Source: Lachnospiraceae bacterium
GTDB taxonomy: Bacteria > Bacillota > Clostridia > Lachnospirales > Lachnospiraceae
NCBI GenBank assembly: GCA_030537145.1
Contig: JAUNON010000005.1
Location: 1-64,000 of the forward strand
Direction of reading: 5' to 3'
DNA length: 64,000 nucleotides
The notes under the pieces: model-generated
What the model was told of the DNA's origin: nothing
The model's database searches: none
Seen by the model: the letters and a program-made list of their open reading frames with translations, nothing else
Made by a program: the position numbers and the translations under genes
Part shown: one piece after another, positions 2,537 to 63,567 of the stretch
Position numbering within the stretch: position 1 is the first letter of the stretch
Layout: every line of letters starts with the position of its first letter

Positions 2537-2558
2537 ATAGTTAGTTATTTCTAACTAC
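2537..2558. promoter_or_regulatory. DtxR-like palindrome, box A (ECF importer)
   Basis: ATAGTTAG-TTATTT-CTAACTAC: inverted 7-bp arms with a 6-bp spacer. The core AGTTAG-N6-CTAACT matches perfectly. It lies 68 bp before the ECF S-component start and also between that gene and the divergent araC. Confidence 0.75.
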
Positions 2559-2626
2559 CATCTTAACACAACAAGTAAGAGCCGTCAAGAAAAAGAATGG
2601 GCTCTAATATCAAGGAGGAAATTGTT

Positions 2627-3250
2627 ATGGCAATACAATCATCGTATCTGGACAAAAAAGGTCTGACGGTAAAAGACCTGGTGACGATCGGTATTTTCAC
2701 AGCTTTATTTTTCGTTTTTGAGTTAATCGGTTCCCTTCCCTTTGCACCGAATCCGGCATTGACGTTCTACCAGCCTTTTGGAATTGCGCTGCTTTGCGGG
2801 CCGGTATTTTTACTCATGGTCGCAAAAGTGCCGAAGCGTGGTACGATTGCAATTCTGGGCATTATCAATGGTATTGTCTGGTTTGCGCTGGGGATGCACT
2901 GGGGTATGGATCTGGGCTATATCATCATGGGAATTGCTGCAGAAATTGTTGCGGGAATAAAAGGGTATAAAAACATCAAATGGAACATTGCTGCATACGC
3001 ACTGTTCTGCCTTGGCCCTGCTGGCGTCTTTGTCGCTTATTTTTTCGATCCGTTGGTATGGGCAAAAACTATGCTGGAAAAGGGAACCGCACAAGAATAC
3101 ATAGATACGATGACCGCAAATGCACCCACTGGTATGCTGCCGGCTATTTTGCTGGGAACGATCGTGATTGCCGTGATTAGCGGCCTTGTGGGAAAGAAAT
3201 TGTTGAAAAAACAGTTTGAGCGGGCCGGTATAACGGAGACACGCTCATGA
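2627..3250 (+). CDS. ECF transporter substrate-binding (S) component, MptD/Trep_Strep type
   Basis: A 207-residue membrane protein with about five or six hydrophobic helices (for example LVTIGIFTALFFVFELIG near the start). It resembles the MptD/TIGR02185 S components that pair with their own T and A genes. It would bind the substrate in the membrane and dock on EcfT. The start at ATG 2627 is supported by AAGGAGG at 2612-2618; an in-frame ATG at 2597 lies upstream of that site. Its 3' end overlaps ecfT by 4 nt. The iron box upstream suggests a metal chelate, haem or siderophore-like substrate, but this is inference. Confidence 0.8.
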   Translation: MAIQSSYLDKKGLTVKDLVTIGIFTALFFVFELIGSLPFAPNPALTFYQPFGIALLCGPVFLLMVAKVPKRGTIAILGIINGIVWFALGMHWGMDLGYIIMGIAAEIVAGIKGYKNIKWNIAAYALFCLGPAGVFVAYFFDPLVWAKTMLEKGTAQEYIDTMTANAPTGMLPAILLGTIVIAVISGLVGKKLLKKQFERAGITETRS

Positions 3251-3975
3251 GCAGGGAGCGCCGCAGATTGCGGATGCCTGTTGATACTGGCAGGACTGGC
3301 TTTTGGATCGATCCCCGCACAAAAATGGTAATTCTTCTCCTGTGTGTATTATCTGCAGCAATGGCCCCGTCTCTGCACTATGAGGTGCTTTTGGTTCTGT
3401 TAATTACCTGCTTTGGAATAGCGTGCCGGAAGGTACGCTATTCCATTATTGGGGCACTGGCTTATGCCGCGGTCTATTTTCTTACAATCGCCGCATTGAA
3501 AACACACGGTTCGGTTCAGGTTATGCTGGCTGCCTTTTTGGGGCTTGTTCACAAAGTTTATCCCTGCGGCATTTTATCAGGCATTCTTATTTCTACCACT
3601 AAGGTTGGAGAATTTCTCTCTGCCATGAATCGGAGCCATGTTTCGCAGAAAATAGTCATTCCGGTGGCTGTTATGATGCGGTACATACCAACTGTCCGGG
3701 AAGATTGGCATTTTATTAAGGATGCCATGAAAATGAGAGATATTTCCCCCTCTTTGAAAAGTTTTCTGACGCATCCCGGCATGACGGTCGAATGTATTTA
3801 TGTCCCTTTGATGATGGCCGCTTCTAAAACGGCCGATGAATTGACCGTTGCTTCTGTTACAAGAGGAATTGAAAACCCAAAACCCCGTACGTCTAATGTG
3901 CAGATCGGCTTTGGCGTGTGGGATGTGGTTGTCACGGCCTGTTTTCTGGCGCTGTTTTTGGCCGGGCAGCTTTGA
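3247..3975 (+). CDS. ecfT: ECF transporter transmembrane component T
   Basis: A 242-residue CbiQ/EcfT-family protein. It opens with a short basic cytosolic stretch and a DPRTKM segment typical of these proteins, followed by about five membrane helices. Two cytoplasmic coupling regions are visible: the MKMRDISPSLKSF helix near residue 160 and the Ala-Arg-Gly-like motif ASVTRGIENP near residue 205. These are the parts that contact the ATPase. The start ATG overlaps the stop of the S component (ATGAG), so the two genes are translationally coupled, and the ATPase gene follows after 14 bp. Overall this is a dedicated group II ECF module with its own energising unit. Confidence 0.85.
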   Translation: MSRERRRLRMPVDTGRTGFWIDPRTKMVILLLCVLSAAMAPSLHYEVLLVLLITCFGIACRKVRYSIIGALAYAAVYFLTIAALKTHGSVQVMLAAFLGLVHKVYPCGILSGILISTTKVGEFLSAMNRSHVSQKIVIPVAVMMRYIPTVREDWHFIKDAMKMRDISPSLKSFLTHPGMTVECIYVPLMMAASKTADELTVASVTRGIENPKPRTSNVQIGFGVWDVVVTACFLALFLAGQL

Positions 3976-3989
3976 AAGGAGGCATTTTG

Positions 3990-5483
3990 ATGATTGAATT
4001 GAGACAGATTACTTTTTCCTACAAGGGGAACCAGACAGGGAGGGAAGGCTCCCAGGAGGGACCGGAGCAGGGAAAGGGGGGCCTGCAGAATGTCAATCTC
4101 ACCATACAGGATGGAGAATGTATCTTACTTTGCGGACGCAGCGGCTGCGGTAAAACAACGATCACCCGTCTTGTAAATGGACTGATACCGAGGTTTTATG
4201 CAGGCGATTTATCCGGTCAGGTTTTCATTAACGGGCAGGACATAGCAGATTATCCTATGTATGAAATTGCAGAACACATTGGCTCTGTATTTCAGAATCC
4301 GCGCACACAATTTTTTAATGTGGACAGTGACAGCGAAATTGCTTTTGGAATGGAGAATGAGGCCTGTCCGCCGGAAGAAATGAAAAAGCGGGTGGATATT
4401 ACAGCAAAAGATTTGGATATCGAGCATCTGCGGGGGCGTTCTTTACATGAGCTATCCGGTGGGGAAAAACAGAAAATTGCGTTTGCTTCTGTCTATGCCA
4501 TGAACCCCGATATTTATTTACTGGATGAACCGTCTTCGAACCTGGACATGGAAGCGATCGGGGATTTGAAACGGCATTTAGCGCTGGTAAAAAAACAGGG
4601 AAAAACCATTTTGATTGCAGAACACCGTCTTTATTATCTAATGGATCTGGCTGACCGCATTGTTTATATGGAGCAAGGACAAATTACCGGAATTTACACT
4701 CCGAAACAGTTCCGGGAGATTCCAGAAGCAAGGCGTGAGGAAATGGGCCTGCGGGCAACCTCTCTGAACACGGTTCATCCGAAAACAGCTATTCCGGTTC
4801 CGTCCGTACCATTGTTGGAATTGAAAGATGTGGCCTTGCGGTACCGGAAACACACGGTATTAGATGGTATCAATTTGACAGCCGGAGCCGGTGAAATTAT
4901 TGGCATTATCGGACATAACGGAGCCGGGAAAACCACACTTTCCAGAGCTTTATGCGGACTGCACAAAAATTCAGACGGACAATTTATATGGAATGGGCAT
5001 CCGCAAAGCAATAAAGGCCGTCTGAAACGCTCCTATATGGTAATGCAGGATGTAAATTATGAATTATTTGCAGAAAGTGTCAGGGCGGAATGTACATTCG
5101 GCATTCGTAAAGCCCCGCCGGGATTTGTTGACAGTACAATGGAAAAGCTGGGACTTACTCCTTATCGGGATAAACATCCAAATACGCTTTCAGGAGGGCA
5201 AAAGCAACGGGTAGCGGTGGCCGTAAGTATGATTTGCGGAAAGGAATTGCTGGTATTTGACGAGCCAACAAGCGGTTTGGATTTTGACAGTATGAGGCAG
5301 GTTGCTGAGCTGATCCGGGAGCTTTCCGCCGCAGGAAAAATTATTTTTATCGTAACTCATGACTACGAGTTTATTTGCCGCACCTGTTCCCGCATTCTCC
5401 ATGTAGATTACGGCAGACAGTGCGAAGATTTTCCGGTGTCCTCAATTACTGAAAATCAGATCAGGCAGCTATTTTCAATGTGA
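3990..5483 (+). CDS. ECF transporter ATPase, duplicated (two nucleotide-binding domains in one chain)
   Basis: A 497-residue protein with two ABC ATPase domains in tandem, equivalent to fused EcfA and EcfA'. Domain 1 has a Walker A at CGRSGCGKTT, the signature LSGGEKQK and Walker B IYLLDEP. Domain 2 has Walker A GHNGAGKTT, signature LSGGQKQR and Walker B LLVFDEP. It powers the S/T pair encoded just upstream. The start is ATG 3990, preceded by AAAGGAGG; the frame is open upstream but lies inside ecfT. An unusual Gly/Glu-rich insert (about 15 residues) follows the first beta strand near residue 12. Confidence 0.88.
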   Translation: MIELRQITFSYKGNQTGREGSQEGPEQGKGGLQNVNLTIQDGECILLCGRSGCGKTTITRLVNGLIPRFYAGDLSGQVFINGQDIADYPMYEIAEHIGSVFQNPRTQFFNVDSDSEIAFGMENEACPPEEMKKRVDITAKDLDIEHLRGRSLHELSGGEKQKIAFASVYAMNPDIYLLDEPSSNLDMEAIGDLKRHLALVKKQGKTILIAEHRLYYLMDLADRIVYMEQGQITGIYTPKQFREIPEARREEMGLRATSLNTVHPKTAIPVPSVPLLELKDVALRYRKHTVLDGINLTAGAGEIIGIIGHNGAGKTTLSRALCGLHKNSDGQFIWNGHPQSNKGRLKRSYMVMQDVNYELFAESVRAECTFGIRKAPPGFVDSTMEKLGLTPYRDKHPNTLSGGQKQRVAVAVSMICGKELLVFDEPTSGLDFDSMRQVAELIRELSAAGKIIFIVTHDYEFICRTCSRILHVDYGRQCEDFPVSSITENQIRQLFSM

Positions 5484-5658
5484 GCTTTGCAAAGGAGGAA
5501 AGACCCTATGCAAAAAAGAAAAATCCTATAAGGCTCCTGCCTGGAGGGGCGGTATCAGCGAAATTATATACTCACTAGCAATCGTAGGATGTCCATAGTG
5601 GAAATCCAGGAAAGAAATCTTTGCTTGACTTTTCAACAAGGTTATATTAAACTAACCG
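5484..5658 (+). other. Intergenic region with a ribosome site and a 7-codon ORF
   Basis: Directly after the ECF ATPase, AAAGGAGGAAAGACCCT precedes ATG at 5508, but the frame ends after seven codons (MQKRKIL). This is either the start of a gene lost by deletion or a tiny leader peptide. Further on, TTGACT at 5625-5630 is a likely -35 element for the eno operon. Nothing else is recognised. Confidence 0.35.
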
Positions 5659-5680
5659 ATAGTTAGTGAAAACTAACTAT
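5659..5680. promoter_or_regulatory. DtxR-like palindrome, box B (eno-ahpC-ahpF)
   Basis: ATAGTTAG-TGAAAA-CTAACTAT is a perfect 8-bp inverted repeat with a 6-bp spacer. A further half site, AACTAAC at 5650-5656, lies immediately to the left and could seat a second dimer. The box follows a TTGACT -35 candidate at 5625 and overlaps or follows the -10, as expected for repression. It is 112 bp before the eno start. Confidence 0.8.
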
Positions 5681-5686: not shown

Positions 5687-7087
<1,401 letters not shown>

Positions 7088-7110
7088 AAGTTCAGGAGGG
7101 ATTTATTTAG

Positions 7111-7674
7111 ATGTCATTAATTAATAAAGAAGTAAGCGATTTTACTGTACAGGCGTTTTGGGACAATGCCTTTCAGACAGTTACAAAAGCAGATATCATG
7201 GGAAAATGGAGCGTATTTTTCTTTTATCCGGCAGATTTTACCTTTGTTTGCCCGACGGAGCTGGAGGACCTGGCAAACAAATATGAAGATTTTAAGAAAG
7301 CGGGATGCGAGATTTATTCCGTGTCTACAGATACACATTTTGTACATAAGGCATGGCATGATGCATCTGACCGCATAAAAAAGATCCGGTATCCCATGCT
7401 GGCAGATCCGACCCATGCGCTGGCCAAGGACTTTGAGGTGCTGATTGAGTCAGACGGCCTTGCGGAAAGAGGAACCTTTGTCGTAAATCCGGAGGGAAGG
7501 ATCGCTGCATACGAAGTAAATGCCGGAAATGTAGGGCGCAATGCAGATGAACTGTTCCGCAAGGTGCAGGCGCTTCAGTTTGTGCATGAACATGGAGATG
7601 AGGTTTGCCCTGCAAAATGGCAGCCGGGAGCAGAAACTCTGAAACCAAGTCTGGATTTGGTAGGAATGTTATAA
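7111..7674 (+). CDS. ahpC: Alkyl hydroperoxide reductase subunit C (2-Cys peroxiredoxin)
   Basis: A 187-residue typical 2-Cys peroxiredoxin that reduces hydrogen peroxide and organic hydroperoxides. The peroxidatic Cys47 is in FTFVCPTE, and the resolving Cys166 is in EVCPAKWQPG, as in the AhpC1 subgroup. The length is normal. It lies 23 bp after eno with its own AGGAGG, and 3 bp before the AhpF-like gene that recycles it. Peroxide defence tied to iron control makes sense because free iron and peroxide together are toxic. Confidence 0.93.
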   Translation: MSLINKEVSDFTVQAFWDNAFQTVTKADIMGKWSVFFFYPADFTFVCPTELEDLANKYEDFKKAGCEIYSVSTDTHFVHKAWHDASDRIKKIRYPMLADPTHALAKDFEVLIESDGLAERGTFVVNPEGRIAAYEVNAGNVGRNADELFRKVQALQFVHEHGDEVCPAKWQPGAETLKPSLDLVGML

Positions 7675-7677
7675 GAG

Positions 7678-9339
7678 ATGAAAAATTTGTTTGATGTTGT
7701 GATAATCGGCGGCGGACCTTCGGGTCTGACCGCCGCCCTGTATCTGGCGCGCGCCAGGTACAGAGTTGTGGTAGTGGAAAAAGAGCATTTCGGCGGACAG
7801 ATCACCATTACCTCTGAGGTTGTGAATTATCCCGGGGTTGGGCGCATAAGTGGAACGGAGCTGACGGAAACCATGAGAAAACAGGCGCAGGATTTTGGTG
7901 CGGAGTTCCTTCTGGCAGAGGTAACGGGGCTGGATTTGGACGGGGATGTGAAGAAGGTGTATACAGGACGCGGGGAGCTTGACTGTTTCGGTGTACTTCT
8001 GGCAACCGGGGCGCATCCGCGTATGGTGGGCTTTCGCGGAGAAGAAGAATTCCGGGGACATGGCGTGGCGTACTGTGCGACCTGTGACGGAGAATTTTTC
8101 ACCGGAAAAGAAGTGTTTGTTGTGGGCGGCGGCTTTGCGGCAGCAGAAGAAAGTATATTTCTGACAAAATATGCAAGGCATGTGACGGTTCTTATCCGGG
8201 GAGAGGATTTTTCCTGCGCAAAAGCGGTGGCCGATGCGGCAAAAAGTCATGAGAAGATTTCGGTTTTAACAAATATTGAGGTGGAGAGCGTTGAGGGGGA
8301 TTTTGCATTGCGCAAACTCCGGTACAGAAATAAGAAAACCAGTGAGGTGACCGAATACGAGGCGCCGGAGGGGGAGAGCTTTGGCGTGTTTGTTTTTGCG
8401 GGATATGAGCCGGCAACAGATCTGGTCAAAGGGATTGCCGAACTGAATGAGCAGGGATATGTGGTGACTGACCGCAATCAAAAAACCAGTGTGGACGGTC
8501 TGTATGCGGCGGGCGATGTGTGTATCAAGGGCCTGCGGCAGGTCGTGACTGCTGTTGGGGACGGTGCACTGGCGGCAACGGAGCTGGAGCGTTATGCTGC
8601 CGGAATGCAGAAAAAGACGGGCTTGAAACCGGAGATGCAAAATGTACAGCGGGCTCAGGCAGGACGGGAGGCCGCCGGTGGTTCGGCAGTCCGTGCCGGC
8701 AGTACTGCAACTGATACGGAAAACGAGGCGGGCAGCCCCTTTTCCAGAGACATCGTTGAGCAGCTACGTACGGTCTTTTCCAGAATGGAGAAGCCGTTGG
8801 TTCTAAAGCTGTCTCTCGACGGGGCGGCTGCCAGCAGAGAGCTTCTTTCTTATGTGAAGGAAATGGCGTCACTGACGGAAAAGCTTACGGTGGAAATCCA
8901 GGATCAGCCAGAGGAAGAGGAACTTCCCTGTGTCAATATTTATCGTCAGGATGGAACGGATACCGGGCTGGCGTTTCATGGAGTGCCGGGCGGCCACGAA
9001 TTTACTTCATTTGTTCTTGGACTTTACAATGCGGCCGGTCCGGGACAGACGGTAGATGCGGCTGTTGCAGGCCGGATTGGTGCAATCGATAGGAAGATGG
9101 ATATGAGGATTATGGTATCTCTATCCTGCACGATGTGTCCGGAGCTGGTGGTATCGGCACAGAGAATTGCAGCGGCCAATCCGCTGGTAAGGGCAGAGGT
9201 TTATGATTTGAATCTTTTTCCGGACCGCAGGGAAAAATATCAGATCATGAGCGTGCCGTGCCTGATCCTTAATGATGGGAAACCTGCATTTGGAAAGAAA
9301 AATATCGAGCAGCTTTTAGACTTAATGGAAAACGCATAG
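7678..9339 (+). CDS. AhpF-like disulfide reductase with swapped domain order
   Basis: A 553-residue flavoprotein that should pass electrons from NAD(P)H to AhpC. Residues 1-305 are a thioredoxin-reductase module with FAD site GGGPSG, redox pair Cys133-Cys136 (YCATCDG), NAD(P) site VVGGGFAAAE and the C-terminal FAD loop YAAGDV. After a low-complexity linker (about 310-355) comes a module that matches the AhpF N-terminal tandem thioredoxin fold: GGHEFTSFVLGL and the redox pair Cys484-Cys487 in SLSCTMCPEL. In enterobacterial AhpF that module is at the N-terminus; here it is at the C-terminus. Only 3 bp separate it from ahpC, so the two are co-translated. Confidence 0.88.
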   Translation: MKNLFDVVIIGGGPSGLTAALYLARARYRVVVVEKEHFGGQITITSEVVNYPGVGRISGTELTETMRKQAQDFGAEFLLAEVTGLDLDGDVKKVYTGRGELDCFGVLLATGAHPRMVGFRGEEEFRGHGVAYCATCDGEFFTGKEVFVVGGGFAAAEESIFLTKYARHVTVLIRGEDFSCAKAVADAAKSHEKISVLTNIEVESVEGDFALRKLRYRNKKTSEVTEYEAPEGESFGVFVFAGYEPATDLVKGIAELNEQGYVVTDRNQKTSVDGLYAAGDVCIKGLRQVVTAVGDGALAATELERYAAGMQKKTGLKPEMQNVQRAQAGREAAGGSAVRAGSTATDTENEAGSPFSRDIVEQLRTVFSRMEKPLVLKLSLDGAAASRELLSYVKEMASLTEKLTVEIQDQPEEEELPCVNIYRQDGTDTGLAFHGVPGGHEFTSFVLGLYNAAGPGQTVDAAVAGRIGAIDRKMDMRIMVSLSCTMCPELVVSAQRIAAANPLVRAEVYDLNLFPDRREKYQIMSVPCLILNDGKPAFGKKNIEQLLDLMENA

Positions 9340-9379: not shown

Positions 9380-10321
9380 ATGATAAATGAGCGGCACAAT
9401 GGAGGATGCAGGAGATCGTTGAAACGAACAGAGATGATTACGGAGGATGACCGCGGGGAAAAAGTGGCAGTGTACGATGTATTTCCCGGAATGTATGTGG
9501 CAAAGGTGGATTATCATATATCAGGATTTGTGGAAGAAAGGAAAAAAAGCAATAAACTGGAGATAAATTTCTGTGTGAGCGGACGATTTGAATGTGAGTT
9601 TACGGAGCGGGATGTAGGAATATTGAAACCGGGGGATATGGCAGTCAGTATGTTTGACGGAGAGAACGGAACAAAGTCCTATACCCAGTTTCCTCTGGGT
9701 TTCTATGAAGGAATTTGCATCATGGCGGACTGTGACAGGGCTACGGAGTGGATGAAGAAATCTCTCGATTCCATTGCAATAGATCTGAATTTGCTGAAAA
9801 AGAAAATTTTATCGAAGCACTGGTATTGGGCAGGAGAGGCAGGGCTGCGGTGTGAGCATGTGTTTCGGGAGATTTATGACAGCATTGAATTTGAAGAGGA
9901 AGCCTTTATCCGGTTGAAGCTTGTGGAACTGTTTATGCTGATGGTAAGACTGCCTCAGACTGACAGGAGAGACTGCTACCATCCCAGAAAGCAGATAGAG
10001 CTGGTGAAAAATATCCGGGATCATATTATTACGGACGGAGACTATTACTCATCGGTGGAGCAGCTTGCCAGGGATCACAGACTTTCCGTCCCGCAGCTCC
10101 AAAAGCTGTTTCGGGAGATATATGGGATGCCCATATACAAATATCTTAAAGAATACCGTCTGGAGCAGGCAGCGGTGAAACTTATCCATACAGATGATCC
10201 CATTATGGAGCTGGCGTTAAGTGCGGGATTTTCCAATGCCAGCAAATTTTCCCAGGAATTTAAGAAAAGATATGGGATGACACCCACCAGATATCGGAAT
10301 GAGAATAAAATTAAAATTTGA
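9380..10321 (+). CDS. AraC-family transcriptional regulator
   Basis: A 313-residue regulator. Residues 20-200 form a sensing domain without a recognised ligand motif. The C-terminal 100 residues are an AraC DNA-binding domain (YSSVEQLARDHRLSVPQLQKLF and LALSAGFSNASKFSQEFKKRYG). Similar AraC proteins with VPQLQKLFREIYG sequences accompany siderophore-type ABC exporters; the truncated copy at 16198 is clearly related. It lies 40 bp after the AhpF-like gene and 66 bp before box C. The start is uncertain: ATG 9380 has a weak ribosome site, and ATG 9434 is an alternative. Confidence 0.85.
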   Translation: MINERHNGGCRRSLKRTEMITEDDRGEKVAVYDVFPGMYVAKVDYHISGFVEERKKSNKLEINFCVSGRFECEFTERDVGILKPGDMAVSMFDGENGTKSYTQFPLGFYEGICIMADCDRATEWMKKSLDSIAIDLNLLKKKILSKHWYWAGEAGLRCEHVFREIYDSIEFEEEAFIRLKLVELFMLMVRLPQTDRRDCYHPRKQIELVKNIRDHIITDGDYYSSVEQLARDHRLSVPQLQKLFREIYGMPIYKYLKEYRLEQAAVKLIHTDDPIMELALSAGFSNASKFSQEFKKRYGMTPTRYRNENKIKI

Positions 10322-10370: not shown

Positions 10371-10404
10371 TATAATCCTCCCATAAAGTTAGCTAAAGCT
10401 AACT
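10371..10404. promoter_or_regulatory. Promoter -10 and DtxR-like palindrome, box C (ZinT-like gene)
   Basis: TATAAT at 10371-10376 is followed by AGTTAG-CTAAAG-CTAACT at 10387-10404. The palindrome matches the consensus perfectly with a 6-bp spacer and lies about where transcription should start. A strong ribosome site (AGGAGG) follows before the ATG at 10425. Confidence 0.78.
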
Positions 10405-10424: not shown

Positions 10425-11138
10425 ATGAAGAAGAAACATATCGCTTTATTAATGGGCAGTACACTGGCTCTTTCTGCATCCGTATGTGGTTTTTCCGTTA
10501 TGGCTGAGGAAACCCAGGGGGCGGAAGAGGCCGAAGAGCTGGAAGGAGCAGACTTCCTCAGTGAGATTCAGGGAAGCTACATTGAACTGTTCCCGGAAAT
10601 GGCTAAGGAAGAGTACCGGGATATCTGGCTGAAGGAAACGGGCACCCTTGTGGGAGAGGAAAATGCCGATGACGCCACTGATATGCTCCTGGGAATGTGT
10701 ATGGCGGATATCTATGGCCAGGAGGCAATTGACAAGTACGGTGACGGATCGGATGGTATGGCATTTAACTGCTATTTCCTGGGCGGTGTCAGCGAATTTA
10801 CGATCCAGGGGGACACCATCAGCGGTACGGATGAAGAGGGAAACGAAGTGTTTAGCCATGTATATGATTATGTGGATACGGACGAAAACGGCTTCTGCCT
10901 CTACCAGAGTGAGGATGAGGATTCCGGGCAGTTTACTTACTTCTCCTTTTCACCGGACACTATGAAAGAAACGCATCATCTGGAGTTCCGCTATTCCGAA
11001 GATGCGTCAGATTTAGAAAGCTGGTTCGAGGGCGCATACGCATACTGGAACGTGGGAGCCATCGCAGCAGACTATGATGATGCCGATATGGAAGCGGCGA
11101 TTCATCTCTTTGCTACTGAGAATTTGTCAGAGGAGTAG
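10425..11138 (+). CDS. Secreted ZinT-like metal-binding protein
   Basis: A 237-residue protein. Residues 1-28 are a signal peptide (KKKH, hydrophobic core, cleavage likely after VMA). The mature protein is very acidic. The C-terminal half resembles the ZinT/YodA lipocalin-like domain: FTYFSFSPDTMKETHHLEFRY, then WFEGAYAYWNVG and an ending helix that includes IHLFATENL. The His pair in KETHHLEF corresponds in position to metal-ligand histidines of ZinT. In other bacteria ZinT binds zinc or cadmium outside the membrane and feeds an uptake system. Here it sits alone under a DtxR-like box and is followed by a strong terminator. The family call is by motif pattern only. Confidence 0.6.
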   Translation: MKKKHIALLMGSTLALSASVCGFSVMAEETQGAEEAEELEGADFLSEIQGSYIELFPEMAKEEYRDIWLKETGTLVGEENADDATDMLLGMCMADIYGQEAIDKYGDGSDGMAFNCYFLGGVSEFTIQGDTISGTDEEGNEVFSHVYDYVDTDENGFCLYQSEDEDSGQFTYFSFSPDTMKETHHLEFRYSEDASDLESWFEGAYAYWNVGAIAADYDDADMEAAIHLFATENLSEE

Positions 11139-11690: not shown

Positions 11691-12308
11691 ATGAGGAAAA
11701 GGATAGAAGGGGTACAGGAACGAATATTGGAATGTGCGGTAGAAGAATTTCTGGAAAAAGGATACACGGATGCCTCCCTGCGCTGTATTGCAGAAAAGGC
11801 GGAGACCAGTACTAATTCCATCTATGTCCGTTTCCGGGATAAAGAGGGGTTGTTTTCTGCCATTGTAGAGCCGGTGGTGGATGAATTTATGAGGATGTTT
11901 GAAACTATTCAGGATACGTTTCATTCTTTTGATGAGGAAACGCAGCGCAAAGAGGTAGGGCAGTATTCTGCTGATGGGATGCTGAGGATGGTGGATTATA
12001 TCTATGACCATTTTGATGCTTTTCGTTTGCTGCTGGATGCGTCCTATGGCACCAGGTTTCATAATTTTGTGGATCAGTTGGTTTCGGTGGAGGAAACGTA
12101 TACCTGGAAGTGGATGGAAGTGACGGGGCTGGCACCGGAGCTTTCCGCCGGTATGACAAGGGAACTTTACCACATGATGGTCACAGCCTATTTTGAAGGG
12201 ATTTTTGAGGTGGTGCGCCATGAAATGGGCAGGGAGGATGCGAAAAAATACATTTCCATGCTGGGAAAGTATCATAGGGCAGGATTTCTGGCAATATCCG
12301 GGGAATAG
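11691..12308 (+). CDS. TetR/AcrR-family transcriptional regulator
   Basis: A 205-residue regulator. The N-terminal helix-turn-helix spans about residues 10-55 (EFLEKGYTDASLRCIAEKAE, then TNSIYVRFRDKEGLF). The C-terminal domain is helical and should hold a ligand. ATG 11691 follows GAGGATATAC and is preferred; the frame is open upstream through the 159-bp repeats, which is not coding evidence. It lies 363 bp before the ABC exporter pair, in the same direction, so it may regulate the exporter as well as itself. Confidence 0.85.
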   Translation: MRKRIEGVQERILECAVEEFLEKGYTDASLRCIAEKAETSTNSIYVRFRDKEGLFSAIVEPVVDEFMRMFETIQDTFHSFDEETQRKEVGQYSADGMLRMVDYIYDHFDAFRLLLDASYGTRFHNFVDQLVSVEETYTWKWMEVTGLAPELSAGMTRELYHMMVTAYFEGIFEVVRHEMGREDAKKYISMLGKYHRAGFLAISGE

Positions 12309-12431: not shown

Positions 12432-12449
12432 AGTTAGAAAATGCTAACT
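12432..12449. promoter_or_regulatory. DtxR-like palindrome, box D (ABC exporter)
   Basis: AGTTAG-AAAATG-CTAACT, a perfect match to the consensus with a 6-bp spacer. The next gene downstream is the ABC exporter at 12672. Confidence 0.72.
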
Positions 12450-12671: not shown

Positions 12672-14459
12672 ATGCAGAAACAAAGTCCGCTGCTCCGTAT
12701 TTGGAGCTGGGGAAAAAATGAACACAGTGGACTGATATGCGCCATTTTAAGTGCGTTTGTCGGTGTGGCACTGGGAATGCTGCCTTATTTTGCGGCAGCA
12801 CAGATTATCATCAAAATGATGGCGGGAGAACGGGAGGTGTCCGTGTATCTGCCATGGCTTGGTATCGGCCTTGCGGGATATGCAGCCCGTACCATTCTTT
12901 ATAACATGGCGCTGTCCATGTCCCATAAGGCCACGTTTGCCATCCTGAGGACTATCCGGCAGAAGATTTTGGAAAAACTGCCGAAGCTGCCTCTTGGGAC
13001 GGTCATGGATATGTCCAGCGGAAAGATGAAACAGATCATTGTGGACCAGGTGGACAGCATGGAAACAACGCTGGCGCATCTGTTTCCGGAAATGACCGCC
13101 AATATCGCCGGGCCATTGTTAATCCTGATTTATCTGTTCGTCCTGGACTGGCGCATGGCACTTTTATCCCTGGTATCCATCCCCGTCGGCATGGCATTTA
13201 TGATGTCTGTTATGGGGAACTACAGCAGGGACTATGAAGGTGCGGTTTGGAAAACCCAGGAAATGAACAGTACCATCGTGGAATACATAAGCGGCATTGA
13301 GGTCATTAAGGCTTTTAATCAGGGAAAGGCTTCTTATGCGAAATTTACGGACAGGGTCAGGGCAAATGCCGTTTACTATTATAACTGGATGAAGAGATGC
13401 CAGTTTGGAACATCCATGGGGTATGCCGTAGTACCGGCTACGCTTATCACGATCCTGCCGGCAGGCTGGCTTTTATACAGAAACGGCAGTCTGCCGGTGG
13501 AAACCTTTATTACGGTTATCATTTTGTCCCTTGGGATTGCCGGTCCGCTGCTTGCAGTCATGAATTTTGTGGATACCCTTGCACAGGTGGGCACTACGGT
13601 GGCGGCTGTGGATGAACTGCTTGAGGCGGAGGAACAGCAGCATGGAGACGGGAATGCTCATATCCAGGGTACGGATATTGAACTGTCCCATGTTTCTTTC
13701 GGTTACCATGAGGATAAAGGGATTCTGCATGATGTAAGCCTTTTCTTCCCGGAAGGAAGCATGACAGCGTTAGTCGGCCCCTCCGGTTCCGGAAAATCCA
13801 CCATCGCCAAGCTGATTGCAGGATTTTGGGATGTAAAGGACGGAACGGTATCCATCGGAGGCGTTGATGAAAAGAAGATCCCGCTGAAAACACTCTATGA
13901 TAAAGTGGCCTTTGTTTCCCAGGACAATTATCTGTTTGATGAGAGTGTCCGGGAAAATATCCGTATGGGAAACTTATCTGCCACGGATCAGGAAGTGGAA
14001 GCAGCCGCAAAAGCTGCAGGCTGTGATGAATTTATCCGGACACTGGAAAAGGGGTATGAAACAAAAGTTGGCGAGGGCGGTGCGCATCTTTCCGGTGGGG
14101 AACGCCAGAGAATTGCCATTGCAAGAGCAATGTTAAAGGATGCCCCCGTGGTAATTCTTGATGAGGCCACAGCCTATATCGACCCTGAAAATGAGGCAGT
14201 CATCCAGAAGGCGATTGCGAAGCTGGTGAAAGGAAAGCACCCTTCGGGTATATCTGGATGCCGTTCGGCAGAAACAAGGAAAACGGTTATTGTGATTGCA
14301 CACAGGCTTTCTACCATCAAGGATGCGGATAATATCGTTGTGGTAAAGGACGGCAGGATAGAGGCTGCCGGGAAGCATGAAGAATTGAGGAAGAGCTGCC
14401 CGCTGTATGAAGCAATGTGGCAGGCACATATTGGAACAAAGGACGGTGATGCGGCATGA
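12672..14459 (+). CDS. ABC exporter, fused membrane and ATPase domains (subunit 1)
   Basis: A 595-residue half-transporter. Residues 20-310 form a six-helix exporter domain. Residues 330-590 form the ATPase, with Walker [11 protein letters not shown]-loop VSQDNYL, signature LSGGERQR, Walker B VVILDEAT and H-loop IAHRLST. It pairs with the next gene, whose start overlaps its stop (ATGA), as a heterodimer. Box D, and the AraC remnant that follows the pair, point to an iron-regulated role like the YbtPQ/IrtAB type; the direction of transport and substrate are not known. Odd: about 15 extra residues (HPSGISGCRSAETRK) sit between Walker B and the H-loop, where relatives read straight from KGK to TVIVIAHRLS. 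Confidence 0.85.
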   Translation: MQKQSPLLRIWSWGKNEHSGLICAILSAFVGVALGMLPYFAAAQIIIKMMAGEREVSVYLPWLGIGLAGYAARTILYNMALSMSHKATFAILRTIRQKILEKLPKLPLGTVMDMSSGKMKQIIVDQVDSMETTLAHLFPEMTANIAGPLLILIYLFVLDWRMALLSLVSIPVGMAFMMSVMGNYSRDYEGAVWKTQEMNSTIVEYISGIEVIKAFNQGKASYAKFTDRVRANAVYYYNWMKRCQFGTSMGYAVVPATLITILPAGWLLYRNGSLPVETFITVIILSLGIAGPLLAVMNFVDTLAQVGTTVAAVDELLEAEEQQHGDGNAHIQGTDIELSHVSFGYHEDKGILHDVSLFFPEGSMTALVGPSGSGKSTIAKLIAGFWDVKDGTVSIGGVDEKKIPLKTLYDKVAFVSQDNYLFDESVRENIRMGNLSATDQEVEAAAKAAGCDEFIRTLEKGYETKVGEGGAHLSGGERQRIAIARAMLKDAPVVILDEATAYIDPENEAVIQKAIAKLVKGKHPSGISGCRSAETRKTVIVIAHRLSTIKDADNIVVVKDGRIEAAGKHEELRKSCPLYEAMWQAHIGTKDGDAA

Positions 14460-16234
14460 TAGAGACATTTCGGAAAATATGGAGGTTTGCTGATAAGGAA
14501 AGATCCAACATCAATAAATCTGTGGCAGTCAGTTTTTTGAACGCAGTATTTCACATGTTTGAAGTTAGCGCTATTTATTTTGTGATTGTAGCGCTGACCC
14601 AGGGGGAGACCGGGAGTAAACCGGCATGGATTGCGCTGGTTTTCATGGCTGTCAGCATCATTGGCCGCGCCGTGACCAATGCGTTTTCCAAGCTGCAGCA
14701 GACGCATGCGGGATATTTTATGTCGGCAAATGAGAGAATCAAGATCGGAAATCTGTTAAAGGGAGTCCCCATGGGATTTTTCAATGAAAACAGCCTTGGC
14801 GAGGTAACAGGTGTCTGCACCACTGTACTTGGAAATGTGGAACTGCTGGTGCCTATGACGCTGGTGAATATCATGGGCGGATTGATCGGTACGATTGTAT
14901 TCACCGCCATGATCATTGCCTTTGAATGGCGGGTTGGACTGGTTGCAGCGGCGGGGATTATCCTATACTTTCTGATCGTATCTTTGATGGAGAGAAAATC
15001 TGTGGCGGTTGCGCCAAACACGCAGAAATCCCAGACGGCGCTCACCTCGGCGGTATTGGAATACGTACAGGGGATGGGGGTAGTCAAGTCTTTTAATCTG
15101 AGCGGCAGAGGAGATAAAAGAATTCAGGATGCTCTGGAATTTAACAGAAGGAGTAATCTTGACCTGGAGAGGCTGATGACGCCTTACAGTATTTTTCAGG
15201 ATCTTGCACTGCAGATCGCAGGAATCGCAATGATGTTAACTGCCATTGTCTGCTGGGCGGACGGAACCATGCCTGTCGCCAATGCGCTGATGTGCATTGT
15301 CATGTCTTTTCTGGTGTTCGGGCAGATTAAACTGTTCGGCATGGGCATTGCCATGCTGCGTCTGGCTTCTGCAAGCATTGACCGGACACTGCAGACGGAG
15401 AAAATGGAACAGATGGATGAGAACGGCAGTGTATTACAGCCAAAGGACCATGGGATTGAATTTCGTAATGTACATTTTTCATACGAAAACAAGGAAATCC
15501 TGCACGGAATCAATGCGGTATTGCCGGATCGGACTACCACGGCAGTGATCGGCCCCTCCGGTTCCGGAAAAACGACGCTCTGCAATCTGATCGCGCGTTT
15601 CTGGGATGCGGACAGCGGCAGCGTGAAGATTGGCGGCTACGATGTCCGGGAGTATACGCTGGAATCCCTGATGGAGCAGATCAGTATGGTATTTCAGAAT
15701 GTATACCTCTTTGCGGATACGATTGAGAATAATATCAAGTTCGGAAAACCGGACGCCACTCATGAAGAGGTGATGGAGGCAGCCAGGAAAGCCTGCTGTG
15801 ATGATTTTATCGAGGCGCTTCCAAAAGGCTATCAGACGGTGATCGGAGAGGGCGGAGCGTCTTTATCCGGCGGAGAAAAGCAGCGGATCAGCATTGCCCG
15901 TGCCATGTTAAAGGATGCCCCAATCGTAATTTTGGATGAAGCTACCGCCAATGTGGATCCGGAGAACGAGGACCGGCTGCAGAAGGCGATTGAGGCGTTG
16001 ACGCAGAATAAAACGATAATCATGATCGCACATAGATTAAAGACCGTACGCAATGCAGATCAGATTCTTGTGCTAGACAGCGGACGGATTGTTCAGCAGG
16101 GCAGGCATGAGGAATTAGTCCGTCAGCCGGGGATTTACGCCGACTTTGTTTTGGGCAGGAAAGAGGCCATTGGCTGGAGATTAAATTCGGAGGATGTTTA
16201 TGGCAACTTCCGAAATATCAGGTGGAAGTGTTAA
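14456..16234 (+). CDS. ABC exporter, fused membrane and ATPase domains (subunit 2)
   Basis: A 592-residue partner of the preceding half-transporter with the same layout: six membrane helices to about residue 300, then an ATPase with Walker A GPSGSGKTT, signature LSGGEKQR, Walker B IVILDEAT and H-loop IAHRLKT. It is translationally coupled to subunit 1. The natural C-terminus is probably at GRKEAIGWRL; the final about 18 residues (from NSEDVYGNF) are not ABC-like and run into the AraC remnant, so the stop codon was probably replaced by a deletion junction. The core motifs are intact, so it should still work. Confidence 0.85.
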   Translation: MIETFRKIWRFADKERSNINKSVAVSFLNAVFHMFEVSAIYFVIVALTQGETGSKPAWIALVFMAVSIIGRAVTNAFSKLQQTHAGYFMSANERIKIGNLLKGVPMGFFNENSLGEVTGVCTTVLGNVELLVPMTLVNIMGGLIGTIVFTAMIIAFEWRVGLVAAAGIILYFLIVSLMERKSVAVAPNTQKSQTALTSAVLEYVQGMGVVKSFNLSGRGDKRIQDALEFNRRSNLDLERLMTPYSIFQDLALQIAGIAMMLTAIVCWADGTMPVANALMCIVMSFLVFGQIKLFGMGIAMLRLASASIDRTLQTEKMEQMDENGSVLQPKDHGIEFRNVHFSYENKEILHGINAVLPDRTTTAVIGPSGSGKTTLCNLIARFWDADSGSVKIGGYDVREYTLESLMEQISMVFQNVYLFADTIENNIKFGKPDATHEEVMEAARKACCDDFIEALPKGYQTVIGEGGASLSGGEKQRISIARAMLKDAPIVILDEATANVDPENEDRLQKAIEALTQNKTIIMIAHRLKTVRNADQILVLDSGRIVQQGRHEELVRQPGIYADFVLGRKEAIGWRLNSEDVYGNFRNIRWKC

Positions 16235-16951: not shown

Positions 16952-16994
16952 TTGACGCGGCGCTATTTTACTGATAAATTAGATATAGCTAACT
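16952..16994. promoter_or_regulatory. Promoter with DtxR-like palindrome, box E (secreted flavoprotein)
   Basis: TTGACG at 16952-16957 and TAAATT at 16975-16980 are spaced by 17 bp. AATTAG-ATATAG-CTAACT at 16977-16994 has one mismatch to the consensus and overlaps the -10, a classic repressor position. AGGAGG-type ribosome site follows before ATG 17017. Confidence 0.78.
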
Positions 16995-18988: not shown

Positions 18989-19041
18989 TTGACATTGCAA
19001 ATGGGTTATGCTATGCTAATCAAAGTGAGCATAAACTAACT
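18989..19041. promoter_or_regulatory. Promoter with DtxR-like palindrome, box F (dtxR autoregulation)
   Basis: TTGACA at 18989-18994 and TATGCT at 19012-19017 are 17 bp apart. AGTGAG-CATAAA-CTAACT at 19024-19041 (one mismatch) lies just downstream of the -10, across the likely transcription start. The gene served is the DtxR-family regulator itself. Confidence 0.78.
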
Positions 19042-19555: not shown

Positions 19556-19573
19556 AGTTAGATAAAACTAATA
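19556..19573. promoter_or_regulatory. DtxR-like palindrome, box G (FTR1/P19 operon)
   Basis: AGTTAG-ATAAAA-CTAATA has an intact left arm and two mismatches in the right arm, with the same 6-bp spacer. It lies 53 bp before the FTR1 start. Confidence 0.65.
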
Positions 19574-21432: not shown

Positions 21433-21512
21433 TACCTTATGAGACAGACGGCAACCCGCATGCCGGGACTGTTTCTGGTAAATAAATGTAAATTTCAAGG
21501 AGGATTTTTAAT

Positions 21513-57266: not shown

Positions 57267-57316
57267 ATGACAATCAAAAAATATGTGGTATAATTGGTTA
57301 GAAATAACTAACCAAT
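57267..57316. promoter_or_regulatory. Promoter with DtxR-like palindrome, box H (ABC pair)
   Basis: ATGACA at 57267-57272 and TATAAT at 57289-57294 are 16 bp apart. ATTGGTTAG-AAATAA-CTAACCAAT at 57293-57316 is a perfect 9-bp inverted repeat with the same 6-bp spacer. It has G/C at the outer core position, which is even closer to the DtxR consensus half GGTTAG. It overlaps the -10. Confidence 0.78.
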
Positions 57317-57368
57317 ATGGGAAAATTGTTATAGAATCGATAGAACGGATTTGAATGGAGGAGAAAAG

Positions 57369-58085
57369 ATGTCAGAGGAAGAGAGAACATTTTTGGAGAT
57401 TGTGGATTTGAGAAAGGGGTTTGGCAGTGGGGAAACCAGGCAGGAAGTGCTCCGGGGCATGAATTTTTCTGTGGCAAAAGGAGAATTCTGCGTGCTTCTC
57501 GGGCCCTCCGGTTCCGGAAAGTCCACTTTGCTTAATATTATCGGAGGAATAGACAGCGCAGATTCGGGATACATCTCCATCCATGGCGATAAGCTGAAGG
57601 ATATGGGAGAAAAGAAGCTGACTCAGTACCGCAGAAAGCATCTGGGATATGTTTTCCAAATGTATAATTTAATTGGGAATCTGAATGTGAAGGAAAATAT
57701 CGAGGTGGGGGCATATCTGTCGGAGAATCCCTTAGATATTGATGAGCTTCTGAATACGCTGGGACTTTTTGAACACAGATATAAGCTGCCCAATCAGCTT
57801 TCCGGCGGGCAGCAGCAGCGTGTCTCCATTGGCCGTGCAATCGTAAAAAATCCGGATATTTTACTTTGTGATGAACCTACGGGCGCATTGGATTACAAGA
57901 CATCAAAGGAGATTCTGAAGCTGATCGAGGATATCAATGTAAAATACGGAAACACCATTATCATGGTCACACACAATGAAGCGATTCGGAATATGGCAGA
58001 TCATGTGATAAAGCTCCGGGACGGAAGTGTGCGTCATAATGAAATCAACGCTGACAAAATTTCCGCTGCGGATCTGGAATGGTAA
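57369..58085 (+). CDS. ABC transporter ATPase, iron-box regulated
   Basis: A 238-residue MacB/LolD-type ATPase: Walker [11 protein letters not shown]-loop FQMYNLI, signature LSGGQQQR, Walker B ILLCDEPT and H-loop VTHN. ATG 57369 follows GGAGGAG; an upstream in-frame TTG at 57351 is before that site. It overlaps the large permease frame at 58079. Under box H, so likely expressed on metal starvation. No substrate gene is linked. Confidence 0.88.
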
Positions 58086-58096
58086 GGGGCGTGATA

Positions 58097-60685
58097 ATGA
58101 TGGAAAATGGAAAAAAGCAAGGGAGCGGAAGGCAGGTAAAAAATCCGCTGGTGAAAAGAATACCCAGAGAGCTGCTCGGGGATTGGAGAAAATATCTTGT
58201 AGTAAGTCTGTTTCTGATTCTTACGATTGGATTTGTGTCCGGAATGTATGTGGCAAACGGAAGTATGATGAAGGCTGCAGAGCGGGGGATTTCGGAATAT
58301 AAATTAGAGGACGGACATTTTGAACTGAGTCAAAGGGCGGACGGGGAGCTGCTTTCTGCGATTCGTACCGGAGAGAAAGCGGATGTAAAGCAGTATTATC
58401 TGGATCAGGCCCGGAAGGAGCTGGATGAACACTCCGGGAGCGGATTTTTGCAGAAGTTTGTAAATGAATTTGCGCCTGCGCTTGGCGCTGCATACGATGA
58501 AGCGTACCAAAAGGCGTATGATAAGGCGTGGGAAGATATACAGGCTGAGATCGATAAAGAATACGCTGAGGCGGAGGAGAAGTATGAGCTAAACGATCCG
58601 GACTTTAAAGCCGTCCCGGTAAGTGTATATGAAAACTTCTACAGAAACGAAGAAGAGGATCCTGATAATGACGGCGTGGCGGATGGAACAGTACGGGTTT
58701 ATGCGAAGAATGAGGATATCAATCTGGCCTGCCTGATGGAAGGAAAATTTCCTGCGGAAGAGACGGAAATCGCAGTTGACCGTATGCATGCGGATAATGC
58801 CGGAATTAAAGTGGGCGATACGATTACAGTCGGCGGACAGACCTTCCGCGTTGTGGGGCTGATTGCTTATGTCAACTACTCCACCCTTCATGAAAAAAGT
58901 ACGGACTTTATGTTTGATGCGCTGAAATTTGACGTGGCAATGGTGACAGAGGAGGGATTTGAACGCCTGGGGAAAACGATTCATTATGCATACGCATGGA
59001 AATACGAAGAATCGCCGGCAGATGAAGCGGAGGAAAAGCAGCTTTCCGATGATTTCCTGAAGGCATTGCTTACACAGGTGGTTGTAGGCGGAAATGAAAT
59101 AGAAGATTTTATGCCGGGATACGCAAATCCGGCAATCCATTTCGCTACAGACGATATGGGATCGGATGAGACAATGGGAGGCGTTCTGCTGAATATTCTG
59201 ATCGTGATTATCGCGTTTATTTTTGCGGTTACGATCAGCAATACGATCAGCAGGGAATCACAGACCATCGGGACACTGCGGGCTTCCGGATATACAAAAG
59301 GAGAGCTGATCCGCCATTACCTTTCTATGCCGGTCATTGTGACCCTGATTGCGGCAGGTATTGGAAATCTGCTGGGGTATTCCCTGTTCAAAAATGTGGT
59401 AGTATCCATGTATTATAACAGCTACAGCCTTCCTGCCTATGAAACGGTATGGAATCCGGATGCCTTTTTTAAAACGACCCTGATACCGGTGGCGCTGATG
59501 TTAGCAGTAAATCTTGCTGTTATTATCAAAATGATGCAGCACACCCCGCTGCAGTTTCTGCGGCATGATTTAAAGAAAACGAAACGGAAAAAGGCGCTGC
59601 GGCTTCCAAAGTGGCGGTTTTTCAGCAGATTCCGCCTGCGGATTATGCTTCAGAATATTCCCAATTATCTGATTCTTTTTGCCGGCGTTTTCTTTATCAT
59701 GGTGATGCTGGCAATGGTTGTGGGGATGCCGTCTACATTGAGCTATTACAAAGAAAATGCGGCGGACATGATGTTTGCCAAATATCAGTATGTGCTGAAG
59801 TCCTGTCGGGATGAAACGGGAAACGTGCTTAGTACTCAAAACGGGGATGCAGAGGAATTTTGTATGACATCCCTGCAGAAGAAAAGCGATACATTGGATG
59901 AAGAGGTTTCGGTATACGGAATCACAGAGGATACCAGATATGTAAAAATTCCGGATCTGGAATCTCTTGGAGAAAACGAGGCGTATATTTCATCCTCTTT
60001 CCAGGATAAATACGGTCTGGAGGTGGGAGATACCGTTTTGCTGGATGAGAAGTATGAGAATCAGCAGTATTCGTTTCATGTGGCAGGCATCTATGATAAA
60101 TGCCAGAGTATTGCGGTTTTTCTCCCGATTGAGAGTTACCGGTCCATATTTGATTTTGAGGAAGATGAATTTAGCGGTTATCTGTCGGATACGGAAATTA
60201 CGGATATTGAGGAGGAAAACATTGCATTGGTAATTACGGAACGGGATATTACGAAGATGTGCGACCAGTTGGATCATTCCATGGGAGCCTATATGGATTA
60301 TTACCAGGTATTGTGTATCCTGTTATCGGCGGTGCTGATCTATCTTCTGACCAAGATTATTATCGAGAAGAATGAAAAGGCCATTTCCATGACGAAAATA
60401 TTGGGATATGAAAACCGGGAGATCGCAAGCCTGTATCTGTTTTCCACCACCATCATTTTGATCCTTTTCGATCTGATCTGTGTGGGCCTGGGCGCCCTTG
60501 TTATGGAAGAGGTCTGGAGGGTGATGGTGTTAAGCTACAGCGGGTGGTTTGCTTTTGTGATAGAACCGGCGGGCTATGTGAAAATGTTTGCCTTCGTTCT
60601 GATCGGATACCTGATCGTAATGTTTTTTGATTTCAGAAGAATCCGCAAAATTCCCATGGACGAAGCTCTGAAGAACGTGGAATAG
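58097..60685 (+). CDS. Large FtsX-like ABC permease, iron-box regulated
   Basis: An 862-residue permease. After an N-terminal helix (YLVVSLFLILTIGFVSGMYV) comes a long extracytoplasmic region with a charged helical stretch (about 75-160, rich in Glu, Lys, Ala and Tyr, probably coiled coil), then FtsX domain 1 (about 365-480) and domain 2 at the C-terminus. Helices that meet the ATPase read IGTLRASGYTKGELI and MTKILGYENREIA. ATG 58097 follows AAGGGG; the frame starts at 58079. It pairs with the ATPase just upstream. Its cargo or mechanical role is unknown. The helical outer arm is like those of FtsX partners that activate envelope enzymes. Confidence 0.83.
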   Translation: MMENGKKQGSGRQVKNPLVKRIPRELLGDWRKYLVVSLFLILTIGFVSGMYVANGSMMKAAERGISEYKLEDGHFELSQRADGELLSAIRTGEKADVKQYYLDQARKELDEHSGSGFLQKFVNEFAPALGAAYDEAYQKAYDKAWEDIQAEIDKEYAEAEEKYELNDPDFKAVPVSVYENFYRNEEEDPDNDGVADGTVRVYAKNEDINLACLMEGKFPAEETEIAVDRMHADNAGIKVGDTITVGGQTFRVVGLIAYVNYSTLHEKSTDFMFDALKFDVAMVTEEGFERLGKTIHYAYAWKYEESPADEAEEKQLSDDFLKALLTQVVVGGNEIEDFMPGYANPAIHFATDDMGSDETMGGVLLNILIVIIAFIFAVTISNTISRESQTIGTLRASGYTKGELIRHYLSMPVIVTLIAAGIGNLLGYSLFKNVVVSMYYNSYSLPAYETVWNPDAFFKTTLIPVALMLAVNLAVIIKMMQHTPLQFLRHDLKKTKRKKALRLPKWRFFSRFRLRIMLQNIPNYLILFAGVFFIMVMLAMVVGMPSTLSYYKENAADMMFAKYQYVLKSCRDETGNVLSTQNGDAEEFCMTSLQKKSDTLDEEVSVYGITEDTRYVKIPDLESLGENEAYISSSFQDKYGLEVGDTVLLDEKYENQQYSFHVAGIYDKCQSIAVFLPIESYRSIFDFEEDEFSGYLSDTEITDIEEENIALVITERDITKMCDQLDHSMGAYMDYYQVLCILLSAVLIYLLTKIIIEKNEKAISMTKILGYENREIASLYLFSTTIILILFDLICVGLGALVMEEVWRVMVLSYSGWFAFVIEPAGYVKMFAFVLIGYLIVMFFDFRRIRKIPMDEALKNVE

Positions 60686-63316: not shown

Positions 63317-63342
63317 TTCTACACGTGTTTTAAGGATTATTA

Positions 63343-63393
63343 GGAGGCTGCCGCAAAATCCGGTTTCTGCGCTGGGGTTTTGCGGCAGCCTCC
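63343..63393 (+). terminator. Hairpin after the P-type ATPase
   Basis: GGAGGCTGCCGCAAAATC pairs with GGTTTTGCGGCAGCCTCC (G-T at the end) over a 15-base loop. No clear T run follows, so it may be a terminator or a processed repeat of the same family as the outer arm of the 57028 palindrome. Confidence 0.65.
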
Positions 63394-63494
63394 CGGTTAT
63401 AAAATACGCATACCGGCCAGGAAGAGGGGATTATCAGTAAATTTTATCAATAAGCGCCATTGACAGATATTATAGATGATGATAGACTAACGTT

Positions 63495-63512
63495 AGTTAT
63501 ACAGAACTAACA
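63495..63512. promoter_or_regulatory. DtxR-like palindrome, box I (DUF2325 locus)
   Basis: AGTTAT-ACAGAA-CTAACA has one mismatch in each arm, with the 6-bp spacer kept. A further CTAACGTTAG palindrome touches it on the left (63487-63496). Confidence 0.6.
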
Positions 63513-63549
63513 AATGACGGGAAATACTTCCCTTATTTTTTCACACATG

Positions 63550-63567
63550 AGTTAGCGTAAACTAACA
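63550..63567. promoter_or_regulatory. DtxR-like palindrome, box J (DUF2325 locus)
   Basis: AGTTAG-CGTAAA-CTAACA has one mismatch. It lies 55 bp after box I, and 17 bp before ATG 63584. Two boxes in a row suggest tight, cooperative control. Confidence 0.72.

Follow-up and report, generated by a model that had tools for sequence, protein, structure and literature searches.

A predicted DtxR-family operator before iron-related genes of a Lachnospiraceae bacterium and other Clostridia

We analyzed a stretch of 64,000 nucleotides (the window) that is part of contig JAUNON010000005.1 (C146) of a Lachnospiraceae bacterium (assembly GCA_030537145.1; genome of 3.10 Mb, 88% complete). The palindrome AGTTAG-N6-CTAACT (the box) occurs in it ten times at up to two mismatches, at 2539, 5661, 10387, 12432, 16977, 19024, 19556, 57296, 63495 and 63550. 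A first-pass annotation had listed ten such palindromes as the sites of one metal-responsive DtxR-family repressor. All ten were found, intergenic and beyond chance, each with the constant 6-bp spacer, and the split into four perfect sites, three with one mismatch and three with two was exact; seven coordinates were also exact, while 2537, 5659 and 57293 were off by 2, 2 and 3 bp. We read the box as the operator of a short, probably iron-activated DtxR-family repressor that would control iron-starvation genes here and in many other Clostridia (probability about 0.77). The features of the window are as follows.

1452-2423, minus strand: AraC-type gene (by similarity and reading)
2539..2556, no strand: box 1, 0 mismatches, between the minus-strand AraC-type gene and the ECF operon
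2627..5483, plus strand: energy-coupling factor (ECF) importer with S component (PF09605 Trep_Strep / MptD family), T component (CbiQ) and fused double ATPase
5640..5657, no strand: a further, weaker site (GGTTAT..CTAACC, 3 mismatches) that overlies the -10 and starts 21 bp before box 2
5661..5678, no strand: box 2, 0 mismatches, directly behind the promoter-like pair TTGACT-17-TAAACT
5717..9339, plus strand: operon of a second enolase, AhpC and a TrxR/AhpF-like protein; the enolase start may be further in
9380..10321, plus strand: AraC-type regulator
10387..10404, no strand: box 3, 0 mismatches
10425..11138, plus strand: the 10425 protein, with a secreted-type beginning (by eye) and no Pfam or NCBIfam family
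11691..12308, plus strand: TetR-type regulator
12432..12449, no strand: box 4, 0 mismatches
12672..16234, plus strand: ABC transporter pair with fused exporter-type membrane domain (export or import alike possible)
16977..16994, no strand: box 5, 1 mismatch
17017..18930, plus strand: FMN_bind and FAD_binding_2 flavoprotein, of flavocytochrome c type by NCBIfam
19024..19041, no strand: box 6, 1 mismatch, directly downstream of the -10 predicted for the DtxR-type gene
19103..19516, plus strand: DtxR-type protein P0001 (the 19103 protein), 137 amino acids; two conserved metal-site residues, the Cys and one Glu, are missing
19556..19573, no strand: box 7, 2 mismatches, before FTR1
19627..28936, plus strand: FTR1, P19 (PF10634), FtrD-like protein, FtsX/MacB permeases with ABC ATPases, DUF4418
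57296..57313, no strand: box 8, 2 mismatches, with a symmetric G/C outer pair, one base behind TATAAT
57351..60685, plus strand: unit of ABC ATPase and FtsX permease
63495..63512, no strand: box 9, 2 mismatches
63550..63567, no strand: box 10, 1 mismatch
63584..63865, plus strand: DUF2325, first gene of DUF2325-DUF3793-flavodoxin

Dinucleotide shuffles of the window (n=100) gave a mean of 1.15 sites and a maximum of 5, against the ten observed at up to two mismatches. Among 90 half-sites made of the same letters, AGTTAG gave 4, 7 and 10 matches at zero, up to one and up to two mismatches; the other 89 averaged 0, 0.09 and 2.46 with maxima of 0, 2 and 9, and the last maximum leaves only the first two columns decisive. 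The palindrome is more frequent in the window than expected by chance, and at up to one mismatch the permuted half-sites fall far short of it. When the spacer was varied from 0 to 20 bp at up to one mismatch, seven sites appeared at 6 bp and one (at 2 bp) for the other 20 spacers together. At up to two mismatches the 6-bp spacer gave 10 sites, the 2-bp spacer 9 and the 10-bp spacer 6, with 3 for each of the 0- and 18-bp spacers; we think that the sites with 2- and 10-bp spacers reflect the 4-bp overlap of the AGTTAG half-site with itself. A scan of the window at up to three mismatches was discarded, being at noise level (21 found, 15 expected). The longest non-overlapping open reading frames cover 89% of the window and nine boxes lie outside them; the box at 63550 is overlapped solely by a minus-strand frame that competes with the DUF2325 gene. 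Genome-wide, at up to one mismatch, there are 11 boxes and one site of a reversed control pattern.

The joining of the boxed units into a single regulon, iron-related by its targets, is upheld, and this regulon reaches past the window, as four sites with at most one mismatch lie outside. These precede feoA-feoA (C146:65165), a FecCD importer (C122:23670), a second TetR-ABC-ABC unit (C3:71793) and an HMA-domain protein (C81:19835); a weaker site lies 84 bp upstream of the one on C122. Beyond the window, feoA-feoA-feoB follows DUF2325-DUF3793-flavodoxin with two more boxes; a two-mismatch site precedes feoB at C146:65695. Outside C146 and C122, the remaining two-mismatch sites (on C1, C27, C52, C87, C96 twice and C118), inspected as sequence, are read as probable noise. 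Right behind feoB, at L016:6110-6601 (C146:68110-68601), lies a gene for a protein of 163 amino acids whose FUR-family match covers the N-terminal half only (positions 2-63 of 121); it may be a FeoC-like or truncated Fur-like partner.

The same association is found in other genomes. In 40 stretches around boxes or DtxR-type genes from 15 other genomes, boxes precede FeoAAB, DUF2325 or DUF3793-flavodoxin, the Trep_Strep ECF operon, ABC-FtsX and TetR/ABC pairs, and also FTR1-P19 (G006) and the family of the 10425 protein (G003, G006). Nine of the 12 other genomes of the genus (G001, G003, G006 to G012) carry at least one box directly before a regulon-type or DtxR-type gene. Since the 40 stretches had been chosen by box or regulator, gene-first tests were made on feoB and AhpC, the loci being the best-scoring for the proteins of this genome and thus non-random. 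Of 30 FeoAAB-type feoB loci, with the own genome among them, 24 have a box within 1300 bp upstream; the 30 include L239 and L259, whose upstream DNA is only 105 and 407 bp long. For the second type of feoB, taken from 20 of the same genomes, the figure is 0 of 20. In both feoB sets the highest count for any permuted half-site is 2. For AhpC the box is upstream in 13 of 30 loci (12 of 29 without the own locus), with 2 for the best permuted half-site. Five of these 30 loci have an enolase ahead of AhpC; in four, the own locus among them, the box precedes the enolase, and in the remaining one it lies between the two genes. The trio of the window, reductase included, recurs with a box in other genera. 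FTR1 proved unsuitable as an unbiased test family: at E 1e-30 only 2 of 120 family genomes have it, one of them the present genome. In a sample of the class Clostridia, 128 of 293 genomes contain a perfect box, and about 42 of the 293 (by eye) the reversed control.

Two stretches are especially rich in boxes. In an Oscillospiraceae bin (L142, 8575-19419), seven exact-core boxes in 11 kb surround FecCD, flavodoxin-DUF3793, two DtxR-type genes, a P-type ATPase, FeoAAB and a TetR/ABC unit, and the stretch appears to be a dense copy of the present island. In Ruminococcaceae YRB3002 (L187, 4275-20327) eight exact-core boxes occur, and in three pairs the distance is 22-24 bp; some boxes adjoin genes that have no match in the reference protein set and are possible further members of the regulon.

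The box also accompanies regulator genes. From titled genome records, peptide patterns (one of which contains the conserved Cys) brought up a larger set of loci with short DtxR-type genes, of which the best 80 were used. The exact box occurs 23 times in their 1.31 Mb, against a mean of 0.10 and a maximum of 3 for 89 permuted half-sites. Twenty of the 80 regulator genes have it in the 300 bp upstream; the reversed pattern is so placed in none of the 80. Where the DtxR-type gene is divergent from feo, 17 of 21 loci have a common intergenic box, and the best permuted half-site reaches 3; L191 was scored as a miss in the feo and operon-head count despite boxes upstream of its regulator. Three records titled Spirochaetes (L159, L201, L209) hold the feo-DtxR divergent pair, and in L159 and L201 the regulator also has the box upstream; this is suggestive of transfer or of mis-binned contigs.

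The 82 exact-core sites yield the consensus (A/G)GTTAG(C/T)-N4-(A/G)CTAAC(C/T), in which the inner four bases are weakly conserved. By the spacer and permutation tests and the published half-site, the box has the TTAG-N6-CTAA register of one IdeR/DtxR-type dimer. TTAG and CTAA are placed exactly as in the IdeR site, roughly one DNA turn from each other, and we therefore take the box for a probable one-dimer site of the DtxR family, an assignment made from the sequence and from published structures. The proposed DtxR/IdeR type of operator therefore stands as to register; as a full TTAGGTTAG-type operator it does not, the box being one dimer's site. No second pair of repeats, as in the 19-bp two-dimer palindrome TTAGGTTAGSCTAACCTAA, is seen in the consensus of the exact-core sites. 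The best-scoring predicted -10 ends between 15 bp upstream of the box and 4 bp into it in 42 of 95 unique one-sided sites. The box would therefore cover the transcription start, as expected of a repressor site. In the window, the earlier statement that the box overlaps or follows the -10 agrees with a crude scan, which covered eight of the ten sites, at 5661, 10387, 19024, 57296 and 63495 and disagrees with it at 12432, 19556 and 63550. Neighboring boxes within 120 bp of each other are 22-35 bp apart in 13 of 20 pairs.

The palindromes might instead be RNA hairpins at the 5' ends of transcripts, acting as an attenuator, a stability element or a protein-bound stem. Many boxes lie at or just after the predicted transcription start and so would be transcribed, and in gene orientation the outer pair is G-U 20 times and A-C 8 times. 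Compensatory change across the stem is, however, little seen: the outer pair can pair in 63 of 95 sites where about 58 are expected from independent sides, the inner five being fixed by the search. This near-independence argues for a DNA site and against an RNA stem. In addition to the weak conservation of the inner bases, 19 of 140 sites are flanked on each side by a gene start no more than 350 bp away, and the box tracks DtxR-type genes. We consider an RNA element very improbable.

A DtxR-family gene had been placed amid the boxes by the first-pass annotation, and indeed the 19103 protein matches PF01325 (E 1e-10, N-terminal winged helix-turn-helix) and PF02742 (E 8e-10, dimerization/metal domain). 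Its structure model has a predicted local distance difference test (pLDDT) score of 89, and the best PDB matches are DtxR, MntR and IdeR, with DtxR on DNA (1ddn) on top. The further claim was that this protein represses all of the units with bound metal. Its gene lies amid the boxes, with one 79 bp upstream of its start and behind its predicted -10. Related DtxR-type genes end box-headed ECF-ABC operons in other genera (14 loci chosen mostly for having boxes, so that these maps are an illustration and give no count), and related genes elsewhere have a perfect box just upstream, for example in G138.

The metal site speaks against this role. The primary metal-site ligands of MntR are D8, E11, E99, E102 and H103. 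In DtxR they are M10, C102, E105 and H106 (PMC2628430). The 19103 protein keeps D26, E121 and H122, and the set is incomplete: it has Gly118 at the Cys/Glu position and Lys29 at the position of MntR E11. Of 115 relatives, 114 have Cys in place of Gly118 and 111 have Glu in place of Lys29. The Cys count among the titled loci (77 of 78) is inflated by the Cys-containing search pattern; in the 37 relatives found without a peptide pattern, Cys is present in 37 and Glu in 35. One other relative, L138, lacks the conserved Cys and has His (QDSHQIEH); it perhaps has a different metal preference. In a tree of 116 rows and 127 columns, the 19103 end branch is the second longest of the 116, and 56 of 113 inner branches were left open, so its place is unsure. 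No protein of the 19103 type was found in the other 12 genomes of the genus (60-95% complete), nine of which have a box directly before a regulon-type gene. It is therefore doubtful that the 19103 protein is the repressor of all units, and binding of metal by it is doubtful as well.

Another DtxR-type protein appeared as a better candidate. A PF01325 search of the genome gave six matches, three of them above the cut-off: the 19103 protein, one on C86 and one on C83, which by its sequence reads as MarR-like. The C86 protein has the Cys, Glu and His of the metal site (DACRIEH), with Asn at the position of DtxR M10, as in 25 of the 116 rows. Besides these two, a search with the 19103 protein at E up to 1e-5 gave 13 DtxR-type genes in the 13 genomes of the genus, all nearer to C86. 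Two C86-type genes of the genus have a box about 50-60 bp upstream (G008/L212 and G012). In G001 (73% complete), with a box before an ABC unit, no DtxR match was found. With the metal residues lost in 19103 and the DtxR-type genes of the genus all nearer to C86, the C86 type is the conserved candidate and 19103 an extra paralog. We lean slightly toward the C86 type as the main repressor on these grounds; that both proteins or another one fill this role is rather unlikely, and the assembly might lack yet another DtxR-type gene. An iron-related regulon with operators of the DtxR-family type is supported by the boxes before matching genes, their presence beside DtxR-type genes and the IdeR register, and the earlier account changes as to the regulator and the extent.

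A tentative and more specific proposal is that 19103 is a DtxR paralog that no longer senses iron (Cys to Gly, Glu to Lys) and has kept the operator. Made from inside the regulon, it would compete or pair with C86 at these boxes and add a second layer, independent of metal or tuned differently, that is confined to an FTR1-P19 iron island. If true, 19103 would be a built-in modifier of an otherwise undescribed, Clostridia-wide DtxR-type iron regulon that includes a dedicated enolase-peroxiredoxin operon.

A different regulator might bind the box, either a Fur-family protein or one of the AraC or TetR neighbors, whose genes flank several boxed units. The present palindrome appears to differ from the Fur box, which counts against the Fur family. 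The box keeps the DtxR/IdeR register and adjoins DtxR-type genes across genera, and in locus maps the five AraC/TetR reference proteins are unmatched beside the feoAAB, DUF2325 and AhpC boxes. We regard such a regulator as unlikely.

Several observations weigh against a DtxR-family iron operator. The genome contains four Fur-family matches, and the 3.2-kb locus of the C86 gene has no box within three mismatches. A crude operon walk placed the box at the operon head in only 4 of the 59 DtxR-type loci that are not divergent from feo; the best permuted half-site scored 3. Genome-wide, at up to two mismatches, the reversed control, which differs from the box in word composition, is commoner than the box (78 against 23). 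Across the genus, at up to one mismatch, the control is present in 12 of 13 genomes and the box in 11 of 13, with counts of box against control of 7 and 5 in G003, 7 and 6 in G009, 1 and 1 in G001, and 1 and 2 in G002. Whole-genome counts thus prove little alone, and the case rests on the position of the box before genes. In Roseburia intestinalis, feoB is reported to be up 3.8-fold in high iron and 1.8-fold in low iron (PMC4659462), a pattern that does not follow simple iron repression; this gene may or may not have a box.

Under a DtxR-family repressor, each box would be bound by one metal-loaded dimer from a single face of the DNA, the recognition helices contacting TTAG and CTAA about one helical turn apart. 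The dimer would cover the transcription start just behind the -10 and block RNA polymerase while iron is plentiful. At low iron the metal would leave, and FeoAAB, FTR1-P19, the ECF and FecCD importers, the flavodoxin and the enolase-peroxiredoxin-reductase operon would be released. The general repressor in this bacterium is probably the canonical DtxR-type protein on C86, with 19103 as an additional paralog expressed from inside the regulon.

Parts of this scheme are of known kind. IdeR/DtxR of Actinobacteria shares the fold and family, the TTAG-N6-CTAA register and the iron-uptake targets, and one IdeR dimer binds TTAGGNNNNCCTAA half-sites in vitro (PMC8464063). There are differences: the usual IdeR/DtxR operator is 19 bp for two dimers, whereas the present consensus is 18 bp for one; the IdeR half-site has G/C at a position inside TTAG, while here the G is outside TTAG; and IdeR has an SH3-like domain, for which the short DtxR-type proteins here, with a median of 126 amino acids, are too short. 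MntR of Bacillus subtilis is similar in being two-domain, without SH3, with one dimer per 18-bp site of inverted 9-bp repeats and sites in rows (PMC11275975), but its regulon is for manganese and it has Glu where C86-type proteins have Cys. TroR of Treponema denticola and T. pallidum is likewise a DtxR-like repressor with an 18-bp dyad beside the promoter, and the T. pallidum operon carries the glycolytic gpm, a loose parallel to the enolase here. TroR differs in the Mn/Fe control (T. denticola) of an ABC cation importer, and its operator, given there in mutated form, does not look similar to the box (PMC2628430). What sets the present case apart as a variant is the form of the operator, the size class of the proteins and some of the members (enolase-AhpC-reductase and DUF2325-DUF3793-flavodoxin); no description of it was found in the open-access literature covered.

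Iron as the signal is suggested by the nature of the targets, as FeoAAB (24 of 30 loci), FecCD and FTR1-P19 are under the box by position. In Faecalibacterium duncaniae, ferrous iron represses feoAABC and not feoAB, so that in one gut Clostridium with two Feo systems only the FeoAA type is Fe(II)-repressed, as the distribution of the box would predict; the box split between Feo types was seen here in other species, and the feo promoters of F. duncaniae itself may or may not have the box (PMC10781979). The text of that paper mentions neither DtxR nor a motif. No DtxR regulon of Lachnospiraceae or Oscillospiraceae was found in the titles and abstract openings of the open-access papers covered, with a prior prediction in databases such as RegPrecise possible, and nothing of use was found there on the Trep_Strep ECF family with heme or iron. 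Descriptions of iron control in the Clostridia that are common in gut and rumen seem to be few. A compact operator, legible from the sequence of any of these genomes, would make the iron regulon predictable and would separate iron-controlled from iron-independent Feo systems. It would also tie DUF2325, DUF3793, the family of the 10425 protein and the second enolase to iron starvation.

Some of these members deserve a further remark. The enolase of the window is a second copy, 58% identical to the enolase on C100. Homologs of the ABC-FtsX unit at 57351..60685 are also preceded by a box in G003, G006, G007, G009, G010 and G012. The label of ZinT-like for the 10425 protein found no support in Pfam or NCBIfam: up to E 1 its sole Pfam match is a weak WG repeat (0.09), and NCBIfam gave no match, so that a ZinT identity was rejected. 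Its homologs in G003, G006 and L144 have the box upstream. Between the 10425 gene and the TetR gene, at 11282-11620, lie two near-identical direct copies of about 160 bp, as judged by eye.

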